Source: Curvibacter sp. (GTDB taxonomy: Bacteria > Pseudomonadota > Gammaproteobacteria > Burkholderiales > Burkholderiaceae_C). Taken from it: a DNA stretch of 64,000 nt. The translations under genes were made by a program, and so were the position numbers. Positions 1 to 60,033 of this stretch are shown piece by piece; positions within the stretch are counted from its first letter, which is position 1, and the number at the start of each line of letters is the position of its first letter. The DNA is taken from NCBI GenBank assembly GCA_020621965.1, contig JAHRYV010000008.1:1-64000 (forward strand). The letters are read 5' to 3'. Under the pieces are notes generated by a model. That model made no database searches, was not told the DNA's origin, and was given only the letters and a program-made list of their open reading frames with translations.

Positions 1-2525
<2,525 letters not shown>

Positions 2526-2530
2526 TGCCC

Positions 2531-2557
2531 CCCTGCAGGCCGTTGCGGCCTGCAGGG
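2531..2557. terminator. Stem-loop between convergent genes
   Basis: Perfect 11-bp arms (CCCTGCAGGCC / GGCCTGCAGGG) around the loop GTTGC lie between the kinase stop and the photolyase stop. The position suggests a shared bidirectional terminator, although there is no clear T tract on either side. Confidence 0.6.
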
Positions 2558-2558
2558 C

Positions 2559-4037
2559 TCACTCTTGCTCTGCGGTCTTGCGGACGACGGCGTAGCGCCC
2601 GAGCGTGCGCTCACGTGCTTCGTCGTGCGCCACCAGCGGCCAGGGATAGTTTTCGCCCAGCGTGACACCGGCGCCGGCCAGTTCCAGCGGACTGGACAGC
2701 CAGGGCGCATGCAGGGCGGCGTCCGGCAGGTCGGCCAGCTGCGGCAGATAGCGCCGGATGAAACGGCCCTGCGGATCGAACTTCCGGCTCTGGCTCACCG
2801 GGTTGAAGATGCGGAACCACGGCTGTGCATCGCAGCCGCTGGATGCCACCCACTGCCAACCGCCATTGTTGGACGCCAGGTCGAAATCATTGAGCTGCTC
2901 GGCAAAGTAGCGCTCCCCCCAGCGCCAGTCGATGCCCAGATCCTTCACCAGGAAGCTGCCCGCCACCATGCGCAGGCGGTTGTGCATATAACCCGTCTGG
3001 TTGAGCTGGGCCATGGCGGCATCGACGATGGGATAGCCGGTGCGGCCCTCGCACCAGGCCCGGAACAGCGCGTCTGCCTGCGGGCCGTGCTCCCAGCGGA
3101 TGGTGTCGTAGGCCGGCCGGAAAGCGCCGTGGGCCACCCGCGGGAAATTGGCCAGGATCTGGAAATAGAAGTCGCGCCAGGCCAGCTCGCTGAGCCAGGT
3201 GGCGGCGCCGGGACTGCCCTGGCGGCTGCGCTGCTGTGCGCTGGCCACCAGCCGGCGCAGCGACACCGTGCCGAAGCGCAGGTGGATGCCCAGGTAGCTG
3301 GGACCTTTGAGGGCAGGGAAATCGCGCGTCTCATGGTATTGGTCCATGCGCTGGGCGAAGTCGTCGAACAATAGGCGCGCGCCGCGGCTGCCGGTGGGGA
3401 TCTTCAGCTGCGCCAGATTGCTGGGCTCGAAGCCGAGTTCGGCCAGTGCGGGGACGGGCTGGCGCAGCGTGGCGGGGCGGGGCGCCAGGGCGCTGGCCGG
3501 CGCCACGGTGTCGTACACAGGCAGCGCGGCAGCCTGCAGGCGCGCCAGCCAGGCGCGTTTGTAGGGCGTGAACACGGTGTAGGGCGTGCCGGCGCCGCTC
3601 AGCAGTTCGCGGCCTTCGAAGATCACGTGGTCCTTGCACGTGTACAGGGCAATGCCGGCGGCCGCGAGCTGGCCGCGCACGCGGGCATCGCGCGCCTGGG
3701 CCTGCGGCTCGTAGTCATGGGCCGCAAACACCGCCTGCACACCCAGCTGCTGCGCCAGCGCCGGCAGAACCTCGACGGCGCGGCCGTGCCGCACGATCAG
3801 GCCGGCTTCGTCTTGCTTGGCCAGGGTGCGCAGGTCGGCATCCAGTTCCAGCAGGCTGGCGTGGATGAAGGCCACGCGCCGGTCGGCGCGCGGCAGCGGG
3901 TCGAGGATGTCGCGGTCGAAGACGAAGGCGCAGTAGACGTGCCGGCACTGCCGCAGGGCCTGGTGCAGGGCAGGGTGGTCGTCCAGCCGCAGATCGCGGC
4001 GAAACCAGACCAGGCCGGAATCCAAGCTATTTTGCAT
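2559..4037 (-). CDS. phrB: Deoxyribodipyrimidine photolyase
   Basis: Light-driven FAD enzyme of 492 aa that reverses cyclobutane pyrimidine dimers; class I CPD photolyase/cryptochrome family. The N-terminus has the antenna-domain signature WFRRDLRLDDHPAL. The C-terminal FAD domain has WKDFYF-like LAWRDFYFQIL, HNRLRMVAGSFLVKDL and the tryptophan-rich WQWVASSGCDAQPWFRIFNP block. I place the start at the ATG at 4037 (MQNSLDSGLVWFRRDL); a start at 4076 would run through the promoter and start of the divergent yqgE. It is convergent with the kinase gene and only 20 bp separate its start from yqgE. Confidence 0.93.
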   Translation of the reverse strand: MQNSLDSGLVWFRRDLRLDDHPALHQALRQCRHVYCAFVFDRDILDPLPRADRRVAFIHASLLELDADLRTLAKQDEAGLIVRHGRAVEVLPALAQQLGVQAVFAAHDYEPQAQARDARVRGQLAAAGIALYTCKDHVIFEGRELLSGAGTPYTVFTPYKRAWLARLQAAALPVYDTVAPASALAPRPATLRQPVPALAELGFEPSNLAQLKIPTGSRGARLLFDDFAQRMDQYHETRDFPALKGPSYLGIHLRFGTVSLRRLVASAQQRSRQGSPGAATWLSELAWRDFYFQILANFPRVAHGAFRPAYDTIRWEHGPQADALFRAWCEGRTGYPIVDAAMAQLNQTGYMHNRLRMVAGSFLVKDLGIDWRWGERYFAEQLNDFDLASNNGGWQWVASSGCDAQPWFRIFNPVSQSRKFDPQGRFIRRYLPQLADLPDAALHAPWLSSPLELAGAGVTLGENYPWPLVAHDEARERTLGRYAVVRKTAEQE

Positions 4038-21922: not shown

Positions 21923-22868
21923 TTCGCGGGCTTTTGCGCTGGTTGCGATGCTGCTGCTGGCCGCGCCGGTGCAGGCCGAATACTGCGTCAACTACTCGTC
22001 CCGGGTCATGTCGCTGGCGCGCCAGTCCGGTTCATCCCAAAGCCGGGGTTGCGTGGCCACCGAAGCGCAATGCGAGAGCGGCCGCATGAGCCGGCCGGGC
22101 GACTACTCCGGCATCTGCTACTACGTGCCGGGCCTGCACCCGCCCACGCCCGGCAAGTCGGGCGGTGGCCCCTCGGCGATGGATCAGGCGGCCAAGGCCA
22201 ATTCCGACGCGCAGAAGAAGATCCGCGCCCAGCAGCAGGCCGAGGACCAGGCCGCCCAGCGCGCGGCGCAGCAGGCCCGCCAGGACCTGCTGGGTGGGCT
22301 CAAGGGCGCTGAGCCTTCCCCGGGCTTGACCATCAAGCTGCCGCCGCCACCGCCGACCCAGGCCCGCAAGCAGCTCGACTGCGTGACGCGCGCCTCGGCC
22401 GCCTCCGCCTCGGCGCGCGAGGACGCGGCCCGCCTTGGCCCCGGGGCGCCTACGCAGGGCAATCAAGACGATTTCGCCAATGCCCAGGACTGCCGGCCCG
22501 TGGCGACGCCCGGCGTGCCGCCGGCCTCGCCACCGACGCCGGTGGCCGACGAACTGCCGCGCGATCCGGCCCTGCTGGCCCGCCTGCTCGAATCCCTGCT
22601 GGCGCGCCAGCGCGACATGCAGCAGCAAATGGCCGGCCAGGACCGCGACATTGCCAAGCTCGAATCCGAGATCGCCCGCGAGGAGCAGGCCCCCAAGGTG
22701 GATCTCAAGGACGCGCCGGCCCAGAGCGACGCGCTGCGCCGCGCGCGCGAGGCCCTGGCCAAGGCCCGCGCCGATCGTCAGAAGACGGCGGCCGAATACG
22801 AGAAATTGCAGCAGCAGGCCCAGGAGGCGCGCCAGCGCCAGGCCGCGCCTGCTGCCCAGCCGAATTAG
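21909..22868 (+). CDS. Secreted coiled-coil protein of unknown function
   Basis: A 319-aa protein with signal peptide (MLLLAAPVQA), a small Cys-bearing N-terminal part (Cys26, CVATEAQC, GICYYVPG), a Gln/Ala-rich helix, a proline hinge (LPPPPP), two more Cys (QLDCVT, AQDCRP), and a C-terminal coiled coil (about 225-310). No family recognised. Its last 40 bp are the left end of a 1.4-kb tandem duplication. Confidence 0.7.
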   Translation: MRNVSSRAFALVAMLLLAAPVQAEYCVNYSSRVMSLARQSGSSQSRGCVATEAQCESGRMSRPGDYSGICYYVPGLHPPTPGKSGGGPSAMDQAAKANSDAQKKIRAQQQAEDQAAQRAAQQARQDLLGGLKGAEPSPGLTIKLPPPPPTQARKQLDCVTRASAASASAREDAARLGPGAPTQGNQDDFANAQDCRPVATPGVPPASPPTPVADELPRDPALLARLLESLLARQRDMQQQMAGQDRDIAKLESEIAREEQAPKVDLKDAPAQSDALRRAREALAKARADRQKTAAEYEKLQQQAQEARQRQAAPAAQPN

Positions 22869-52939: not shown

Positions 52940-54347
52940 GAAACAGAACGGACAAGCGGTGGATGTGGTCATCATGGCGGCAGGCAAGGGCACGCGCATG
53001 AAAAGCAGGTTGCCCAAAGTGTTGCACCGATTGGCCGGTCGTGCATTGTTGCAGCATGTGGTGGATACGGCCAGTGGTCTGGACGCGCGCCGGGTGGTGG
53101 TGATCACCGGCCACGGCGCGGCCGAGGTCGAGGCGGGTGTGGCCCGGCGGGCCGGGGGCGAACTGCAGTTCGTGCGCCAGGAGCCGCAGCTGGGCACCGG
53201 CCACGCCGTGCAGCAGGCCGTGCCGGCGCTGCCGGACGACGGCATCGTGGTGGTGCTGTCGGGCGACGTGCCGCTGACGCAGGCCGATACGCTGCGCGAA
53301 CTGATCGCCGCCTGCGGGGGCGACAAGCTGGCCCTGCTGACCATCGCCTTCGACGACCCCACCGGTTACGGCCGCATCGTGCGCGATGCGGGGGGCAGCG
53401 TGCAGGCCATCGTGGAGCAGAAGGATGCCACCGACGCGCAGCGCCAGATCAAGGAAATCTACAGCGGCATCATGGCCGTGCCGGCGGCGCGCCTGAAACC
53501 CTGGCTGGCCAGACTGGACAACAAAAACGCCCAGGGTGAGTACTACCTGACCGACGTGGTGAAGTTCGCCGTGGCGCAGGGCGTGCCGGTGGTGGCGCAC
53601 CAGATCAGCGATGCGCTGCAGGTGGCCGGCATCAACAGCCCGGTGCAGCTGGCCGAGCTGGAGCGCGCGCACCAGCAGCGTGTGGCGCGCCGCCTGATGG
53701 AGCAGGGCGTGCGCCTGGCCGACCCGGCGCGTTTCGACGTGCGCGGCGAGCTGAGCTGCGCGCAGGATGTGGAGATCGACATCAACTGTGTTTTTGCCGG
53801 CCGCGTGGAGCTGGGCGAGGGTGTGAAGGTGGGCGCGCACTGCGTGATCGCCAATGCCCGCATCGCCGCCGGCGCGGTGATCCACCCCTACACCCATATC
53901 GAAGGCGGCGCCAGCGAGAAAGACCGTGTCGAGGTCGGCGCCGGCGCGCTGATCGGCCCCTATGCCCGCCTGCGCCCGGGCGCCAAGCTCAGTGATGAGG
54001 TGCACATCGGCAACTTCGTGGAGATCAAGGCCTCGACCCTGGCCCAGGGCGCCAAGGCCAACCACCTGGCCTATATCGGCGACTCCATCGTCGGCGAGCG
54101 CGTCAACTACGGCGCCGGCAGCATCACCGCCAACTACGACGGCGCCAACAAGCACACCACGGTGATCGAGGCCGACGTGCACATCGGCAGCAACTGCGTG
54201 CTGATCGCGCCCGTCACCATCGGCGCCGGCGGCACCGTGGGCGGCGGCTCTACCATCACCAAGGACACGCCGCCCGGTGTGCTGACGGTGGCGCGCGCCA
54301 AGCAGGTCAGCCTGAGCAGCTGGCAGCGGCCGCAGAAGAAGAAATAA
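52938..54347 (+). CDS. glmU: Bifunctional N-acetylglucosamine-1-phosphate uridyltransferase / glucosamine-1-P acetyltransferase
   Basis: A 469-aa enzyme for UDP-GlcNAc. N-terminal pyrophosphorylase (IMAAGKGTRMKS near 13, Lys and Arg of the loop; LSGDVPLT; QKDATDAQR) and C-terminal left-handed beta-helix acetyltransferase (GPYARLRPG, HIGNFVEIK, HLAYIGDS, NYGAGSITANYDG). It acts one step after GlmS and GlmM; glmS lies 645 bp further on, separated by an Lrp-type gene on the other strand. Confidence 0.95.
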   Translation: MKQNGQAVDVVIMAAGKGTRMKSRLPKVLHRLAGRALLQHVVDTASGLDARRVVVITGHGAAEVEAGVARRAGGELQFVRQEPQLGTGHAVQQAVPALPDDGIVVVLSGDVPLTQADTLRELIAACGGDKLALLTIAFDDPTGYGRIVRDAGGSVQAIVEQKDATDAQRQIKEIYSGIMAVPAARLKPWLARLDNKNAQGEYYLTDVVKFAVAQGVPVVAHQISDALQVAGINSPVQLAELERAHQQRVARRLMEQGVRLADPARFDVRGELSCAQDVEIDINCVFAGRVELGEGVKVGAHCVIANARIAAGAVIHPYTHIEGGASEKDRVEVGAGALIGPYARLRPGAKLSDEVHIGNFVEIKASTLAQGAKANHLAYIGDSIVGERVNYGAGSITANYDGANKHTTVIEADVHIGSNCVLIAPVTIGAGGTVGGGSTITKDTPPGVLTVARAKQVSLSSWQRPQKKK

Positions 54348-54356
54348 GGGGCGGCC

Positions 54357-54857
54357 CTAACCGGCCTGGAGCCTGGCCGGCAGCGGCACCCGGGTGCCGA
54401 ACTTGCTGCGTTTGACGCTGAAGTAGGTCTTCACGTTGCGCACATTGGCGTCGCTGGTGAACAGGCGCTGCGCCAGCGCCAGGTAGTCCGGCATGTCGCG
54501 CGCGTGCACCACCAGCACGAAGTCCGGCCCCGGCGAGACGCGGTAACACTGCTGCACGGCCGCGTCCGGCGCCACGCGCTGCTCAAAGGCGGCCAGGGCT
54601 TCCTCGCCCTGGCGTTCCAAGGAAATTTCGACGATGGCCTGCAGGCCGTGGCCCAGCAGCGGCGCCAGCTTGTCCGGGCTGAGCAGGGCCACCTGCTTCT
54701 CGATCAGGCCCGTCTCCAGCAGGCGCTTGACGCGGCGCAGGCAGGTGGGCGGCGAGATGTGGGCTTGCGCCGCCAGGGCCTGGTTGCTCAGGCCGGCGTC
54801 GTTCTGCAGGGCGTCGAGCAGCAGCAGGTCGGTGGCGTCTATGTTGATGGATTCCAT
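54357..54857 (-). CDS. Lrp/AsnC-family transcriptional regulator
   Basis: A 166-aa regulator. HTH at residues 10-45 (LDALQNDAGLSNQALAAQAH, ISPPTCLRRVKRL) and a C-terminal RAM ligand domain (AIVEISLERQGEEALAAFE, FDFVLVVHARD-like DFVLVVHARDM). Start at the ATG at 54857; the preceding in-frame codon is only TTG. Divergent from glmS across a very AT-rich gap (54860-54990), so it may regulate glmS or itself. Confidence 0.87.
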   Translation of the reverse strand: MESINIDATDLLLLDALQNDAGLSNQALAAQAHISPPTCLRRVKRLLETGLIEKQVALLSPDKLAPLLGHGLQAIVEISLERQGEEALAAFEQRVAPDAAVQQCYRVSPGPDFVLVVHARDMPDYLALAQRLFTSDANVRNVKTYFSVKRSKFGTRVPLPARLQAG

Positions 54858-54992
54858 AATCAATCAATTTGTGAAATATTTGCGCTTTAAATCTGGTCGG
54901 TGAAATTAAAGTTCAAAAACAAACAAAAATCAACCAGATATTTTTCAACAAGCCTTCTACCATCGCGGAGTTCATTTCAGAGAGGACTCCCC

Positions 54993-56852
54993 ATGTGTGG
55001 CATCGTCGGCGCCGTTTCCAACCACAACATCGTTCCCGTGCTGGTGCAGGGCCTGCAGCGGCTGGAGTACCGCGGGTATGACTCCTGCGGCGTGGCCGTG
55101 CATGCCCGGGGCGGCCTGCAGCGCGCGCGCAGCACCTCGCGCGTGGCCGAGCTGGCCGAGCAGGTGGCCAAGGACGCCGTCACCGGCTACACCGGCATCG
55201 CCCACACGCGCTGGGCCACCCACGGCGCGCCGGCGGTGCACAACGCCCACCCGCACTTCAGCCACGGCCCGGGCGCCGACGAAGAAAAACGCGCAGCGCG
55301 CGTGGCGCTGGTGCACAACGGCATCATCGAGAACCACGACCAGCTGCGCGCGACGCTGCAAAAGCGCGGTTACGTCTTCGTCAGCCAGACCGACACCGAG
55401 GTCATCGCCCACCTGATCGACTCCATCTACGACGGTGACCTGTTCGAGGCCGTCAAGGCCGCCACCAAACAGCTGCACGGCGCCTACGCCATTGCCGTCT
55501 TCCACAAGGACGAACCGCACCGCGTGGTGGGCGCGCGCGCCGGCTCGCCGCTGATCCTGGGCGTGGGCACGGGAGCGGATCAGGGCAGCCACTACCTGGC
55601 CAGCGATGCTATGGCCCTGGCCGGCGTAACGGACCAGATCGTCTACCTGGAAGAGGGTGACGTGGTGGACCTGCAGCTGGGCAAGTTCTGGGTGGTCGGG
55701 CGCGACCACAAGCCCGCGCAGCGCGCCGTCAAGACCGTGTTGGCGCACAGCGGCGCGGCCGAACTCGGCCCCTACCGCCACTACATGCAAAAGGAAATCT
55801 TCGAGCAGCCGCGCGCGATCGCCGACACGCTGGAGGGCGTGGAAGGCATCGTGCCCGAGCTCTTCGGCGACGGCGCCTACAAGGTCTTCAAGGACATCGA
55901 CTCGGTGCTCATCCTGGCCTGCGGCACCAGCTACTACAGCGGCTGCGCCGCCAAGTACTGGCTGGAGAGCATCGCCAAGATCCCCACGCAGGTGGAAGTG
56001 GCCAGCGAATACCGCTACCGCGACTCGGTGCCCAACCCCAGGACCCTGGTGGTCACCATCAGCCAGTCCGGCGAGACCGCCGACACCCTGGCCGCGCTGC
56101 GCCATGCGCAGAGCCTGGGCATGCAGCACACGCTGACCATCTGCAACGTCAGCACCTCCGCCATGGTGCGCGAGTGCAAGCTGCACTACATCACGCGCGC
56201 CGGTGTCGAGATCGGCGTGGCCTCCACCAAGGCCTTCACCACCCAGCTCGCCGGCCTGTTCCTGCTGACGCTGGCGCTGGCCCAGGTGCGCGGACACCTG
56301 AGCGAGGCCGACGAGGCCCAGCACCTCAAGGACATGCGCCACTTGCCCGTGGCCCTGCAGGCCGTGCTGGCGCTGGAGCCGCAGATCATGAGCTGGGCCG
56401 AGGACTTCGCCCGCATGAACAACGCCCTGTTCCTCGGCCGCGGCCTGCACTACCCGATCGCGCTGGAAGGCGCGCTCAAGCTCAAGGAAATCAGCTACAT
56501 CCACGCCGAGGCCTACCCGGCCGGCGAGCTCAAGCACGGCCCGCTGGCCCTGGTGACCAACGAGATGCCGGTGGTGACCGTGGCGCCCAACGACGCCCTG
56601 CTGGAAAAGCTCAAGAGCAATATGCACGAGGTGCGCGCGCGCGGCGGCGTGCTCTATGTGCTGGCCGACAGCGACACCCACATCGAAAGCGGCGACGGCC
56701 TGCACGTCATCCGCATGCCCGAACACTATGGTGCCCTGTCGCCCCTGCTGCACGTGGTGCCGCTGCAGCTGCTGGCTTATCACACCGCCTGCGCGCGAGG
56801 CACGGATGTGGACAAACCCAGAAACCTGGCCAAGAGTGTGACCGTCGAATGA
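54993..56852 (+). CDS. glmS: Glutamine-fructose-6-phosphate aminotransferase (isomerizing)
   Basis: A 619-aa enzyme making glucosamine-6-P, the entry step to UDP-GlcNAc. N-terminal Ntn amidase with nucleophile Cys2 (MCGIVGAVS), HTRWATHG near 75, then two SIS domains ([22 protein letters not shown]) and the C-terminal [10 protein letters not shown] that ends GlmS in most bacteria. The stop lies inside a 15-bp-arm hairpin. Its terminal codons are repeated twice downstream (see repeat entries). glmS 3' ends are a well-known integration hotspot (attTn7). Confidence 0.95.
56820..56852 (+). other. glmS 3' tail, copy 1 (native end of glmS)
   Basis: AGA AAC CTG GCC AAG AGT and onward encodes [10 protein letters not shown] and TGA. 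It forms a perfect hairpin 56832-56865 (AAGAGTGTGACCGTC / GACGGTCACACTCTT, loop GAAT). Further, CAAACCCAGAAACCTGGC (56813-56830) recurs inverted at 56895-56911 with one base less. Reference copy for the two downstream repeats. Confidence 0.8.
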
Positions 56853-56979
56853 CGGTCACACTCTTGTGTCGCGCAGCGACGGCGCCGTAGGCGCGCCAGG
56901 TTCTGGGTTTGCGGCGCAGGCTAACTTCGCGCAGCGAAGTTAAGGCCCGCAGGGCCGGCCGCAGCCACAAGCCTTTTCG

Positions 56980-57012
56980 CGTAATTTGGCCAAGAGTGTC
57001 ACCGTCGAATGA
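56980..57012 (+). other. glmS 3' tail, copy 2 (orphan)
   Basis: CGT AAT TTG GCC AAG AGT and onward encodes the same [10 protein letters not shown] and TGA as glmS with four codon changes, all silent. The stop-spanning hairpin is kept with one mismatch (56994-57023). An inverted partial copy (GCCAGGTTTCTCGGTTTG, reverse complement of a KPRNLA-coding sequence) follows about 40 bp on. Confidence 0.75.
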
Positions 57013-57119
57013 CGGGGACACTCCGGGTGCCGCGTGGCGACAGCGCCGCAGGCGCGCCAGGTTTCTCGGTTTGGATGTCGCTCACTTCGCGCAGCGAAGT
57101 TATGTGACAGCACAAACTA

Positions 57120-57152
57120 CGCAATCTCGCCAAGAGCGTGACGGTCGAATGA
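57120..57152 (+). other. glmS 3' tail, copy 3 (orphan)
   Basis: CGC AAT CTC GCC AAG AGC and onward encodes [10 protein letters not shown] and TGA, again with only silent differences; upstream CAC AAA CTA extends the match to GlmS (D/H-K-P/L). The hairpin is partly kept (10 of 11 pairs). Copies 2 and 3 are 140 bp apart and both are preceded or followed by the palindrome ACTTCGC-GCA-GCGAAGT (56932 and 57084 areas). Confidence 0.75.
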
Positions 57153-57162
57153 CCATCACGCG

Positions 57163-59037
57163 CTAGCGTCGCGCAGCGCCGGCAGTCGCGGACCCTGCCT
57201 CGGAGCCGCCGCCCGCCTGCCGCAGCACCACGCGGTTGCGGCCCTGGCCCTTGGCGTCGTACATGGCCTGGTCGGCCTGGTGGTACAGATCGCGGGGCGA
57301 CAGCGCGGTGTCGCCCGCCGCCGCCTGCCACACGCAGATGCCGGCGGAAATCGTGACGGCACATTCGGCCTCGACCCGCTGGCGGATCTGCTCGACGCGG
57401 GTCTGCGCCTGCAGCGCCGCCTGGCCGCTCAGCAACACCGCGAACTCCTCGCCGCCCAGGCGAAAGACCCGGTCGGTGTCGCGGCGCAAGACCTCCCGCA
57501 GCAGGGCCGCCACCTGGGCCAGCACCGCGTCGCCGGCCTGGTGGCCCAGGCTGTCGTTGATGCGCTTGAAGTGGTCCACGTCCAGGATGGCCAGGGCCAG
57601 CGGCTCGCCTTCGCGCTGCGCGTGTTTGCTGGCGAGCTGCAGCGCCTCGTCGAAGGAGCGGCGGTTGAGCAGGCCGGTCAGCGCGTCGGTGGTGGAGAGC
57701 TGGTGCAGGCGCTCGTTGGCCAGCTGCAGCTCGGCGGTGCGCTGTGTGACCTCGGCCTCCAGCCGCGCGGTCATGGTGCGTTGCGACTCGATCTGTTGCC
57801 GCTGGGCCCGCAGGGCCTGTTGCTTCAGGTCGTGGATGCGCCAGCTCAGGATCAGGGCCAGCAGCAGCATCTCCAGGATGGAGCCGATGTTGAGCGCGTA
57901 CTCCACCAGCGGCGTCGAGGGCAGCAGGCCGAAGACCCGCAGGTCGTAGACGATGACCCCCAGGCCCAGAAAGACCCAGGCCAGCAGGTACAACCGGGCC
58001 TCGGCCTGCCCGCGCCAGGCCAGCAGGACCGAGGTGGACAGCAACGTCACCAGCAGCAGGCCGCTGACCGGCAGCAGCGTGCGGAAGGTGGCGGCATACC
58101 AGTCGAGCAGGCTGGGCACCAGGTGCAGGGCCACCAGCGCCAGCAGCACCAGGTTGGCCCGGTGCCAGCGCGGGGCCTGGCGCTGCGTCTGCATGAAGCT
58201 GGAGGCAAACGCGGTGAGCGAGGCGAAGATGGCCACCGCGCTGACGCCGAGCACGACGTTGTTGAACTTCGGGCTGTCGGGCCAGAAGTAGGCAAACCCG
58301 AAACCGAGAAAGCTGAAGTTCCAGAACAGAAAACTGCCCAGGTACAGGGCATACAGCACGAAGATGCGCTCGCGGCTGAGCCAGCCCGCCACCAGCATGT
58401 AGATCATGAGCAGCGCATTGGCGCCGAAGTAGGCGCCCAGCAGCAGCGTCTCGGTCAGGCCGTGGTCCACAAAGGCGTCGGGCTGCCAGAGCTTGAGCGG
58501 GATGGCCTCGAACAGGCCGTCGTGGGTGTCCAGCCGCAGCCACAGCTGGCCCTGGCTGTGTGCGGGCAGCTCCAGCCGGAAGACCGGGTAGCGGTAGGGT
58601 ACGGGCCGCTGGGCAAAAGGCTGGCGGTCGCCGGTGTGCCAGAACCGCGGCGCCTGGCCGGCCACGGCCCAGCGCACCTGCACGTCGTCCTGCAGGGGCA
58701 TGGCCAGCTCCAGCACCCGCGTCATGGGTTCGGCCGTGGGGTTCTCCAGCGCCAGCCGCACCCACCACGTCGAGCGCGAAAAGCTGAAGTTGAGCACCGC
58801 CATGGTGCTGGCCCGCCAGGGCAGGGCGCGGTCCTCGACCACCTCGTCCCAGGCCAGCGTGCGGCCGGGGTCTTCCAGCAGCTGCACCTGCGGCCCCAGG
58901 GCGAGCGGGCTCGCCTGGATGGCGGCCGCGTTCAGGGGCGCCGGCTCTTGCGCCTGCGCGGGCGCGCCCAGGCACAGCAGCGCCAGGCACAGGAGAGGCC
59001 GCAGCCATGGCCGGCAGGACAGGAGGAACTCATTCAT
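57163..59037 (-). CDS. Membrane diguanylate cyclase with 7TMR-DISM sensor
   Basis: A 624-aa protein: signal peptide (LALLCLGAPAQA), extracytoplasmic 7TMR-DISMED2-like beta domain (about 40-180), seven TM helices (about 190-390), a coiled coil (about 400-450) and a C-terminal GGDEF domain with active site RLGGEEFAVL near 560 (GGEEF variant, active form) and DVDHFKRINDSLGH. It makes cyclic-di-GMP in response to an external ligand, probably a carbohydrate. The upstream (3') side is the glmS tail array. ATG at 59037. Confidence 0.9.
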   Translation of the reverse strand: MNEFLLSCRPWLRPLLCLALLCLGAPAQAQEPAPLNAAAIQASPLALGPQVQLLEDPGRTLAWDEVVEDRALPWRASTMAVLNFSFSRSTWWVRLALENPTAEPMTRVLELAMPLQDDVQVRWAVAGQAPRFWHTGDRQPFAQRPVPYRYPVFRLELPAHSQGQLWLRLDTHDGLFEAIPLKLWQPDAFVDHGLTETLLLGAYFGANALLMIYMLVAGWLSRERIFVLYALYLGSFLFWNFSFLGFGFAYFWPDSPKFNNVVLGVSAVAIFASLTAFASSFMQTQRQAPRWHRANLVLLALVALHLVPSLLDWYAATFRTLLPVSGLLLVTLLSTSVLLAWRGQAEARLYLLAWVFLGLGVIVYDLRVFGLLPSTPLVEYALNIGSILEMLLLALILSWRIHDLKQQALRAQRQQIESQRTMTARLEAEVTQRTAELQLANERLHQLSTTDALTGLLNRRSFDEALQLASKHAQREGEPLALAILDVDHFKRINDSLGHQAGDAVLAQVAALLREVLRRDTDRVFRLGGEEFAVLLSGQAALQAQTRVEQIRQRVEAECAVTISAGICVWQAAAGDTALSPRDLYHQADQAMYDAKGQGRNRVVLRQAGGGSEAGSATAGAARR

Positions 59038-59175
59038 GACGAAGCGAGGCGTCCGGATTCTTGTTGGGGTGACCAGGGGCGGTCGGTGCGGACTTGCCGG
59101 GGGATTATGGTCGACGGCGGGCGAGCGCCGGTGCCGGGTGGCTAAACTAGGGCGTAGTCCCACGTTCCCACCCCT

Positions 59176-60033
59176 ATGAACCAAGAATCCTTCCAGCGCC
59201 AGGTGCAAGCCGACGTGCAGCGCGCCCTCGACGAAGACGTGGCCGGCGGCGACCTCACCGCCTCCCTGGTGCCGGCGGACCGTCAGGCCACCGCCACCAT
59301 CGTTTGCCGCGAAGCCGCCGTGATCTGCGGCCAGCCCTGGGTGACGGAGGTGCTGCGCCAGATCGCCCCGGGGGCCCAGGCCGTCTGGCACGTGAGCGAC
59401 GGCGGGCGCTGCACGCCCGGGCAGAAGATCGTGGAGATCACCGGCCGCGCCCGTGAGCTGCTGACCGCCGAGCGCACCTGCCTGAACTTCCTGCAGACCC
59501 TGAGCGCCGTGGCCACCAAGACCGCCCGTTACGTGGAGGCCGTGCGCGGCACCCGCGCCGCCATCCTTGACACGCGCAAGACCATCCCCGGCCTGCGCGT
59601 GGCCGAGAAATACGCTGTGCGCTGCGGCGGCGGCAAGAACCACCGCATGGGCCTGTACGACGCCATCCTGATCAAGGAGAACCACATCGCCGCCGCCGGC
59701 GGGCTGACGGCGGCCTTCCGCGCCGCGCAGCAGCTGGCCGACCGGGCGGCCTTCATCCAGGTCGAGGTGGAGACGCTCAAGCAGCTGGAAGAAGCGCTGC
59801 AGGCCGGTGTCACCATGGTGCTACTGGACAATATGCCCATCGAGACGATCCGCCAGGCGGTGCAGATGGCCGCGGGCCGCTGCAGCCTGGAGATCTCGGG
59901 CGGCGTCACCCTGGACACGCTGCGCCCGCTGGCCGAGACCGGTGTGGACCGCATCTCGGTCGGCGCGCTGATCAAGGACATCCAGGCGGTCGATTTCTCG
60001 ATGCGTTTCCAGGATAAGCCGGTCGAGCGTTAG
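59176..60033 (+). CDS. nadC: Nicotinate-nucleotide pyrophosphorylase (QPRTase)
   Basis: A 285-aa enzyme converting quinolinate and PRPP to nicotinate mononucleotide. Motifs ILDTRKTIPGLR near 126-137, KYAVRCGGGKNHRMGL and EVETLKQLEEAL, plus EISGGVTL near the C-terminus. De novo NAD synthesis, cytosolic. nadA/nadB are not adjacent. Confidence 0.95.
   Translation: MNQESFQRQVQADVQRALDEDVAGGDLTASLVPADRQATATIVCREAAVICGQPWVTEVLRQIAPGAQAVWHVSDGGRCTPGQKIVEITGRARELLTAERTCLNFLQTLSAVATKTARYVEAVRGTRAAILDTRKTIPGLRVAEKYAVRCGGGKNHRMGLYDAILIKENHIAAAGGLTAAFRAAQQLADRAAFIQVEVETLKQLEEALQAGVTMVLLDNMPIETIRQAVQMAAGRCSLEISGGVTLDTLRPLAETGVDRISVGALIKDIQAVDFSMRFQDKPVER

Follow-up and report, generated by a model that had tools for sequence, protein, structure and literature searches.

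Directly behind its glmS gene, a Curvibacter sp. carries two further copies of the 3' end of that gene, separated by short folded spacers. The array lies in the window that we analysed, a stretch of 64,000 nucleotides (contig JAHRYV010000008.1, positions 1 to 64,000 of the forward strand), and we judge the chances to be about even that it arose when a small non-coding mobile element was inserted behind glmS twice in succession by a putative recombinase. The observations on which this reading is built are the structure of the units, covariation, a junction motif, empty sites in one repeat family, an excess of silent differences between gene-end copies and the many genes targeted. Numbers beginning with G and L are our designations for genomes and for loci or contigs, respectively.

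The last eleven codons of glmS (33 nt, hereafter the tail) occur in frame three times, the third time at 57120-57152 (for the other two see Table 1), with a spacing of 160 and then 140 bases. A degenerate pattern of the peptide, allowing up to two mismatches, matched exactly three places in the window and had 0 matches in 100 shuffles. Codon choice at R, N, L, S, V and T varies among the tails and the peptide is the same in all three, so pattern search and codon comparison bear out a preliminary description of this DNA, according to which the copies differ at silent codons only. A hairpin with a GAAT loop spans the stop codon of every tail, as had also been described; it has 16 perfect pairs in copy 1 (56831-56846/56851-56866) and one inner-stem mismatch in copies 2 and 3 (by eye). 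Inverted partial tails were found where they had been placed, 3' of copy 1 (56895-56911, by eye) and of copy 2. The palindrome ACTTCGC-GCA-GCGAAGT, reported earlier for each copy, stands after copies 1 and 2 only (56924-56940 and 57084-57100) and is reduced to a 74% match after copy 3. The glmS tail opens with AGA, which is seldom used for arginine in genomes of such high GC content, in L001, L003, L004, L005, L008, L014, L017, L020 and L026.

Folded as single-stranded DNA, the first unit (56813-56972) reaches -67.6 kcal/mol (z -10.8) and forms two domains, namely a hairpin with the tail inside, termed H0, and then a core. The H0 of element 1 contains three smaller hairpins, one of them over the stop codon, and the inverted arm of element 2 is 94% complementary to 56813-56830 in the region of tail 1, not to the present copy 2. 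When positions 54000-60000 of the window were compared with Rfam at E values up to 1, three chance-level matches were obtained, none within the array.

The spacer between the tails is not specific to glmS and contains a conserved three-way-junction core with strong covariation. In an alignment of 17 cores, drawn from glmS spacers and a small number of other loci, 23 columns are invariant, in the layout GCTTGCGGCGCAGGCTAAC-hairpin-GTTAAGGC-hairpin-GGCCGNAGCCACAAGC, and the consensus fold of these cores, a three-way junction, shows two-sided changes at 12 of 23 pairs. Among 119 core matches (96 distinct), 95.9% of cells are paired compared with 79.4% in shuffled data, and the covariation score is 0.407 compared with 0.130 after shuffling and no more than 0.041 after sliding, all in an alignment that was fitted to the model and favours the structure. 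P1 has 89.4% of its cells paired, outer arms that vary by locus yet pair (CTTG/CAAG, AATTT/AAATT, CGTTT/AAACG and ACTTT/AAAGT) and a conserved C-A mismatch (89 of 96 cores); P2 reads CTNAC/GTN'AAG, with a middle pair that covaries (A-T, C-G, G-C), and the core also shows a GNA/GNA internal loop. The same covariation, together with the sense orientation of cores at the gene 3' ends examined and an excess of G-U over A-C among paired cells (65 to 31), would fit a functional RNA 3' end (a terminator or stability element) under selection, the gene-end copies being by-products of copying. We hold this to be improbable, as cores also occur in antisense at gene starts (ruvC, nuoD), inside tRNA genes and in a miniature inverted-repeat transposable element (MITE), as a core stands directly behind glmS in only 4 of 21 same-genus loci (own genome included), and as the P1 mismatch reads C-A in the sense strand.

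Cores lie between two copies of a gene end at argF, folE2, pstB, nrdA, metK, yggX and cysH, and between two copies of a gene start, in antisense, at ruvC and nuoD. NCBIfam matches over cut-off were obtained for glmS, folE2, argF, pstB, nrdA, metK, yggX and cysH (in G018); ruvC and nuoD were identified from their peptide reading. In G055, folE2 has six tails and five cores with a period of 144-145, and argF in G029 has four tails and three cores with a period of 160; other duplicated ends are those of pstB in G018, nrdA and metK in G094, yggX in G055, and cysH in G018 and G015. Across 21 hand-framed comparisons of gene-end copies, 103 codon differences are silent and 8 are replacements. Silent sites amount to 23%, and the P value of about 2e-55 for this split is only indicative, because the comparisons are not all independent (several come from one array: two each from the window, G009 and folE2) and only alignable copies enter, decayed ones such as glmS in G012 being absent. 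Excluded from the count were identical tandem copies, proB (L206), a near-identical metK-like pair (L046), the antisense gene start L187, argF in L173/L224, cysH in L185 and L286, and the pattern-selected tandem-tail contigs (L038-L072, described below), whose peptides are intact by selection.

This split indicates that both copies of such pairs were once working gene ends. Tail copies 2 and 3 of the window likewise behave as once-functional glmS ends, in agreement with the origin that had been proposed for them; no donor genome was identified for these two copies. The final argF copy of G029, taken to be the displaced original, departs from the preceding one by three silent changes in 18 codons, and the pstB copies differ even in their stop codons (TGA, TAA). 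In favour of local tandem duplication followed by drift, identical copies do stand in tandem (folE2 in G055 and argF in G029 are examples), from which it follows that unequal crossing-over does amplify units. However, duplication with neutral drift is not tenable in view of the silent excess, and in pstB and argF the copies are unrelated in sequence beyond the stop codon (by eye); we therefore give it next to no credence as the origin of the array, and the doubt that the preliminary description had cast on it is supported.

The arm directly before the core can pair with the start of the gene end that the unit carries. Within 130 nt upstream, 46 of 92 distinct cores have an exact complement to this arm, 8 nt or longer, compared with 0.9% of mismatched pairs after random re-pairing. 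A guide partner of at least 5 nt was found for 67 of 100 cores; GA precedes the partner in 53 of these 67, and ACAA or AAAA comes after the core in 34 and 12, respectively, so that the site reads GA|MAA (GACAA or GAAAA). In frame, it often encodes Asp/Glu and then Asn/Lys; by eye, examples are DK|P of GlmS and EN|R of ArgF. Empty sites were provided by a MITE family of G055, members of which have no core (L356-L358), one core (L326, L327 and L329) or two cores (L324, L325 and L328): one empty/filled pair reads CCGAGACATAAC and CCGAGA[66 nt]CATAAC, the other GAGCGAGCACC and GAGCGA[63 nt]ACACC. Since the H0 hairpin is part of the MITE insert, the minimal element would measure about 63-66 nt. The family (L324-L329, L338-L340) has the ends GGAAACGCTGA...TTCAGCGTTTCC, and many of its copies hold one or two cores. 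In the same genome, the first copy of tRNA-Phe is broken at the anticodon loop by four cores (L337 2561-2970) and the first copy of tRNA-Leu by three (L336 2630-3031), each with an intact gene after it. The idea that the core is an intron of tRNA genes was rejected because an intact tRNA copy follows both interrupted ones.

According to the insertion reading, the element, 63-160 nt long, would consist of H0 and a conserved core that ends in GCC, with the three-way junction in type B cores; the H0 stem would open with AMAA... and close with a complementary guide arm ...TTK. The element would sit at GA|MAA in conserved gene ends, where the cargo in the H0 loop (here the last glmS codons and the stop) would re-supply the gene end and the old end would be pushed downstream. 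Repeated insertion at one site would then build arrays with the newest unit next to the gene, which would also give the order of the two events in the window. The folded strand is probably what recombines, a putative recombinase joining it at AMAA, and the tails would derive from other species. Serial insertion at one site, of which the array had been thought to be a record, fits these observations. The earlier suggestion that the tails are att ends brought in by integrating elements needs correction, as we find, in place of the att end of a large island, a non-coding unit of 145-155 nt whose kind is also present at many other genes; units read as 63-160 nt are too short to hold an integrase gene, for which a search beside the tails had been advised. 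With a shade less than even confidence, we further propose that such units may be a new, minimal form of mobile DNA in Burkholderiales, that is, a folded, protein-free module of about 63 nt plus cargo, which would insert at GA|MAA within tRNA genes and the best-conserved gene ends, find its site through an internal complementary arm and carry a replacement end in the H0 loop, making essential genes safe and repeatable landing sites.

Table 1. Parts of the glmS array in the window, followed by the insert found in the tandem-tail contig L062
Feature	Position	Strand	Basis
glmS coding sequence, ends in tail copy 1	54993..56852	+	NCBIfam TIGR01135, 787 bits
Tail copy 1, in use by glmS (real gene end)	56820..56852	+	pattern search, tail alignment
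Putative element 1, 155 nt, begins ACAAAC, holds tail copy 1 and inverted arm, closes with core 1	56812..56966	+	boundaries placed by junction motif
H0 hairpin of element 1, arm CAAACCCAGAAACCTGGC pairs with GCCAGGTTCTGGGTTTG	56813..56911	+	sequence, single-stranded DNA fold
Core 1, three-way-junction element, type B	56907..56972	+	covariance model R1, 86.6 bits, E 1.5e-25
Putative element 2, 145 nt, begins ACAAGC, holds tail copy 2, closes with simpler type A core	56967..57111	+	putative boundaries
Tail copy 2, not in use	56980..57012	+	pattern search, tail alignment
Inverted arm of element 2	57056..57073	+	sequence comparison
Core 2, type A, a single long hairpin containing ACTTCGC-GCA-GCGAAGT	57069..57117	+	weak R1 match, 17.7 bits, E 0.014; fold z -3.1
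Target-site copy ACAAAC and tail copy 3, read as displaced original glmS end	57112..57152	+	putative order
Insert of L062	about 2190-3930	reverse	

Within the same order, 47 of 100 genomes (own genome included) gave matches to the covariance model R1 at E 1e-4; a class-wide draw with stricter filters and threshold (E 1e-7) gave two matching genomes among 274, namely the own genome and one of the same family. The own genome has 11 matches at E 0.01 and 9 at E 1e-4, and G055 has 35 cores at E 1e-3. The weakest own-genome match, at window position 22807, looks like coding sequence and was taken as chance. Own-genome cores are located at glmS, at a reductase-like gene (C62, two cores) and at argF (C75; NCBIfam), and, by peptide likeness only, at cysH (C33) and a fadD-like gene (C48). 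The reductase-like gene is similar to iron-sulfur flavin reductases (NCBIfam matches under cut-off for L037), and in G012, G015 and G020 different cores stand at it in tandem, without tails.

The glmS end was matched in 56 of 60 genomes (own included), and two to three tandem tails are present in the own genome, G009, G015 and G030. Among the best matches of the 60 genomes, 30 glmS loci were retrieved and 29 of them were readable (no tail could be read in L027); in five of the 29, a core lies no more than 220 nt behind glmS. Four of these five loci have intact extra tails within 600 nt, as against 0 of the 24 loci without a core, G018 and G024 being counted among the latter although their core and tail lie elsewhere (67 kb on and on another contig, respectively). 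The preliminary description had named three identical copies in all close relatives as decisive against it; instead, copy number and sequence vary among the relatives. A pattern of two tails 110-140 nt apart matched 35 genome contigs, of which 33 bear Betaproteobacteria names (Comamonadaceae, Gallionellaceae, Azonexus, Sulfuritalea, Hydrogenophilaceae, Vitreoscilla and others), one is named 'Proteobacteria bacterium' and one is from Methylobacterium (L050), the last looking like a plain duplication or an assembly fault with an N. At E 1 or better, R1 matched 32 of the 34 contigs other than L050, with many weak matches among them (simpler spacers); at E below 1e-8 it matched 21 of the 34, in L046 at a locus other than glmS.

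Several observations weigh against the insertion reading. Some second glmS copies lack the RNL codons (L039, L043, L049 and L060), L032 has one changed codon and G012 keeps no downstream tail. No guide partner of 5 nt was found for 33 of 100 cores; in the MITE family, the second event has one base difference at the junction and the guide arm lacks complementarity to the right flank in both events (by eye), and at the phage locus L292 the native sequence is replaced, not merely interrupted, in comparison with 33 relatives. The identity profile of glmS (28 loci) has no break at the insertion site, and phylogenetic signal is lost from about 100 nt before the stop; the tail segment has a rho of 0.31 with the rest of glmS, which is not exceptional because 19 of 160 other segments are equal or lower.

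Enzyme families were compared with core counts per genome by eye. The numbers of Y1, Y2, reverse transcriptase (RT) and IntI matches do not track the cores, and none of these families is required, tyrosine and serine recombinases not having been searched. Y1 transposase (PF01797) was detected in 76 of the 100 genomes and in none of G055, G065, G045, G089, G095 and G098, all of which have cores. IntI (TIGR02249) was over cut-off in 40 genomes and not in the own genome, G018 (20 cores) or G055 (fragment only). Y2 (PF04986) was present in 13 genomes and absent from G000, G055, G094, G012 and G018, and RT (PF00078) was present in 34, with two matches in the own genome and none in G055, G018, G012, G015 and G017. 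With its 35 cores, G055 thus has no Y1, Y2 or RT match and an IntI fragment only, and an autonomous copy of the element was not found.

These results can be set against a serious, if rather unlikely, alternative, in which homologous recombination spreads the units: gene body and downstream tail would serve as homology arms, foreign DNA would add a unit while the own tail stays, and the core would be an old dispersed repeat that needs no dedicated recombinase. Such recombination explains the silent differences, the varying number of units and the kept old tail, fits the upstream loss of signal better than insertion does, and is consistent with none of the four enzyme families following the cores. 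However, it leaves unexplained the first arrival at unrelated targets (the repeat family, tRNA genes and phage genes), the GA|MAA junction and the tandem different cores without tails. Both processes may act, insertion accounting for first arrival and recombination for spread.

The end of glmS is also the landing place of Tn7-like transposons, and the array might be left over from Tn7-like or integrase islands whose att ends stayed behind, which we consider very unlikely. Tn7 and Tn7-like transposons land behind the stop, making a short duplication, and are not known to copy the gene end. A motif that by resemblance was taken for a Tn7-like end (AAAGTCGWAAAC) begins 37 nt past the glmS stop in five loci (L005, L008, L009, L010 and L021); in L028 the distance is 136 nt, and in L052 the motif begins 41 nt past the third and last tail. 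None of four L052 frames matched a transposition protein in NCBIfam, and the window has no such motif within 90 nt of its glmS stop or near its tails (L001). In G018, glmS (C1:172237-172809) and the rest of the unit (C1:240072-240214) lie 67 kb apart, and proteins with TnsA-like, AAA_22, TnsD and TniQ domains are encoded at the far end, indicating that a Tn7-like island split this array. This island (C1:172237-240214; L033, L031, L425 and L426), known from its ends of 13.3 and 14.3 kb, has glmS and tail copy 1 on one side, the core of the unit on the other and TTAGC at both ends. In L062, a 1.8-kb insert with small reading frames lies between tail copies 2 and 3, about 25 nt behind copy 2. Inserts within such arrays, for which the preliminary description had advised a search, exist in G018 and L062. 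In the window, units of 145-155 nt would leave no room for transposition genes; those of G018 belong to a separate insertion. The motif at these loci and the island adjoining a split unit in G018 favour island remnants, and against them stand the cores at many genes where no such end is seen, the splitting of a unit by the G018 island and the point that Tn7 is not known to duplicate the gene end. The best reading is that Tn7-like islands use such tails and did not make them. According to PMC11406308, TnsD of Tn7 recognises the conserved 3'-end coding sequence of glmS. This is also the place of the array, and in such arrays Tn7-like transposons land as separate events.

Other known systems share single traits with the units. 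Integron cassettes also form arrays at a fixed site and recombine through a folded imperfect hairpin with unpaired bases, but the P1 ends of the core are TTK/MAA, not the RYYYAAC...GTTRRRY of attC recombination sites (whose ends are RYYYAAC/GTTRRRY), and here there are no cassette genes and intact IntI is not required. IS200/IS605 and REP/RAYT elements resemble the units in their hairpins, short target motif and internal arm pairing with the cleavage sites, and guide pairing with target and element end is seen here in the 46 of 92 arms and in P1; unlike them, the units carry gene-end cargo and occur in six core-bearing genomes without Y1. The transposase of IS91/ISCR (Y2) and the RT of group II introns, retrons and diversity-generating retroelements do not track the cores. 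Islands and phages that restore 3' ends through tyrosine integrases likewise supply a replacement gene end and leave the old end at the far side, and element-borne gene ends with silent differences, a trait of integrase-type islands, are found here; in contrast, our units are about 63-160 nt long, leave no room for an integrase, have a folded core and occur at many target genes. Rickettsia palindromic elements and MITEs are also short palindromic repeats, sometimes inside reading frames, but are not known to have replacement gene ends or a conserved three-way junction.

As far as we could see within open PMC text, where no description of this repeat was found, gene-end-restoring elements are known as large islands and not as a folded, protein-free version of 63-160 nt that serves many genes. 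Here, gene-end restoration is seemingly done by such a non-coding unit at many conserved genes. If true, this would offer a natural model for guided, gene-sparing insertion, account for the short pieces of conserved genes found again and again downstream of their intact copies in these bacteria, and reveal a way for attTn7 sites to multiply. The core, being conserved, also offers a concrete handle for finding the enzyme.

Mobile replicons were also inspected. Among viral contigs, no phage with a lone tail was seen: at least 80 IMG/VR contigs (L073-L152) have a glmS-like coding end, their own or the host's, and in all of them glmS-like coding sequence lies upstream of the tail (by eye). An exact core pattern matched three viral contigs, once after an rpoD-like end and twice within phage-like genes (gene names assigned by eye); in one of them (IMGVR_UViG_2524614862_000002, L291, reverse strand) the core lies in the tail of a phage gene, portal-like by eye, with a second tail copy after it. 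Phage records gave no match with the one query used, and plasmid records gave six and six matches with two queries; in four of the twelve matching plasmid records that were examined, a folE2 or glmS gene end only and no core was present. Plasmid p3-T1 of Acidovorax sp. T1 (L296), a mobilizable IncP plasmid, carries a whole annotated glmS with a possible transposon end behind it (by eye). In the window itself, the gene behind the array (57163-59685, minus strand) appears by eye to encode a membrane GGDEF protein.

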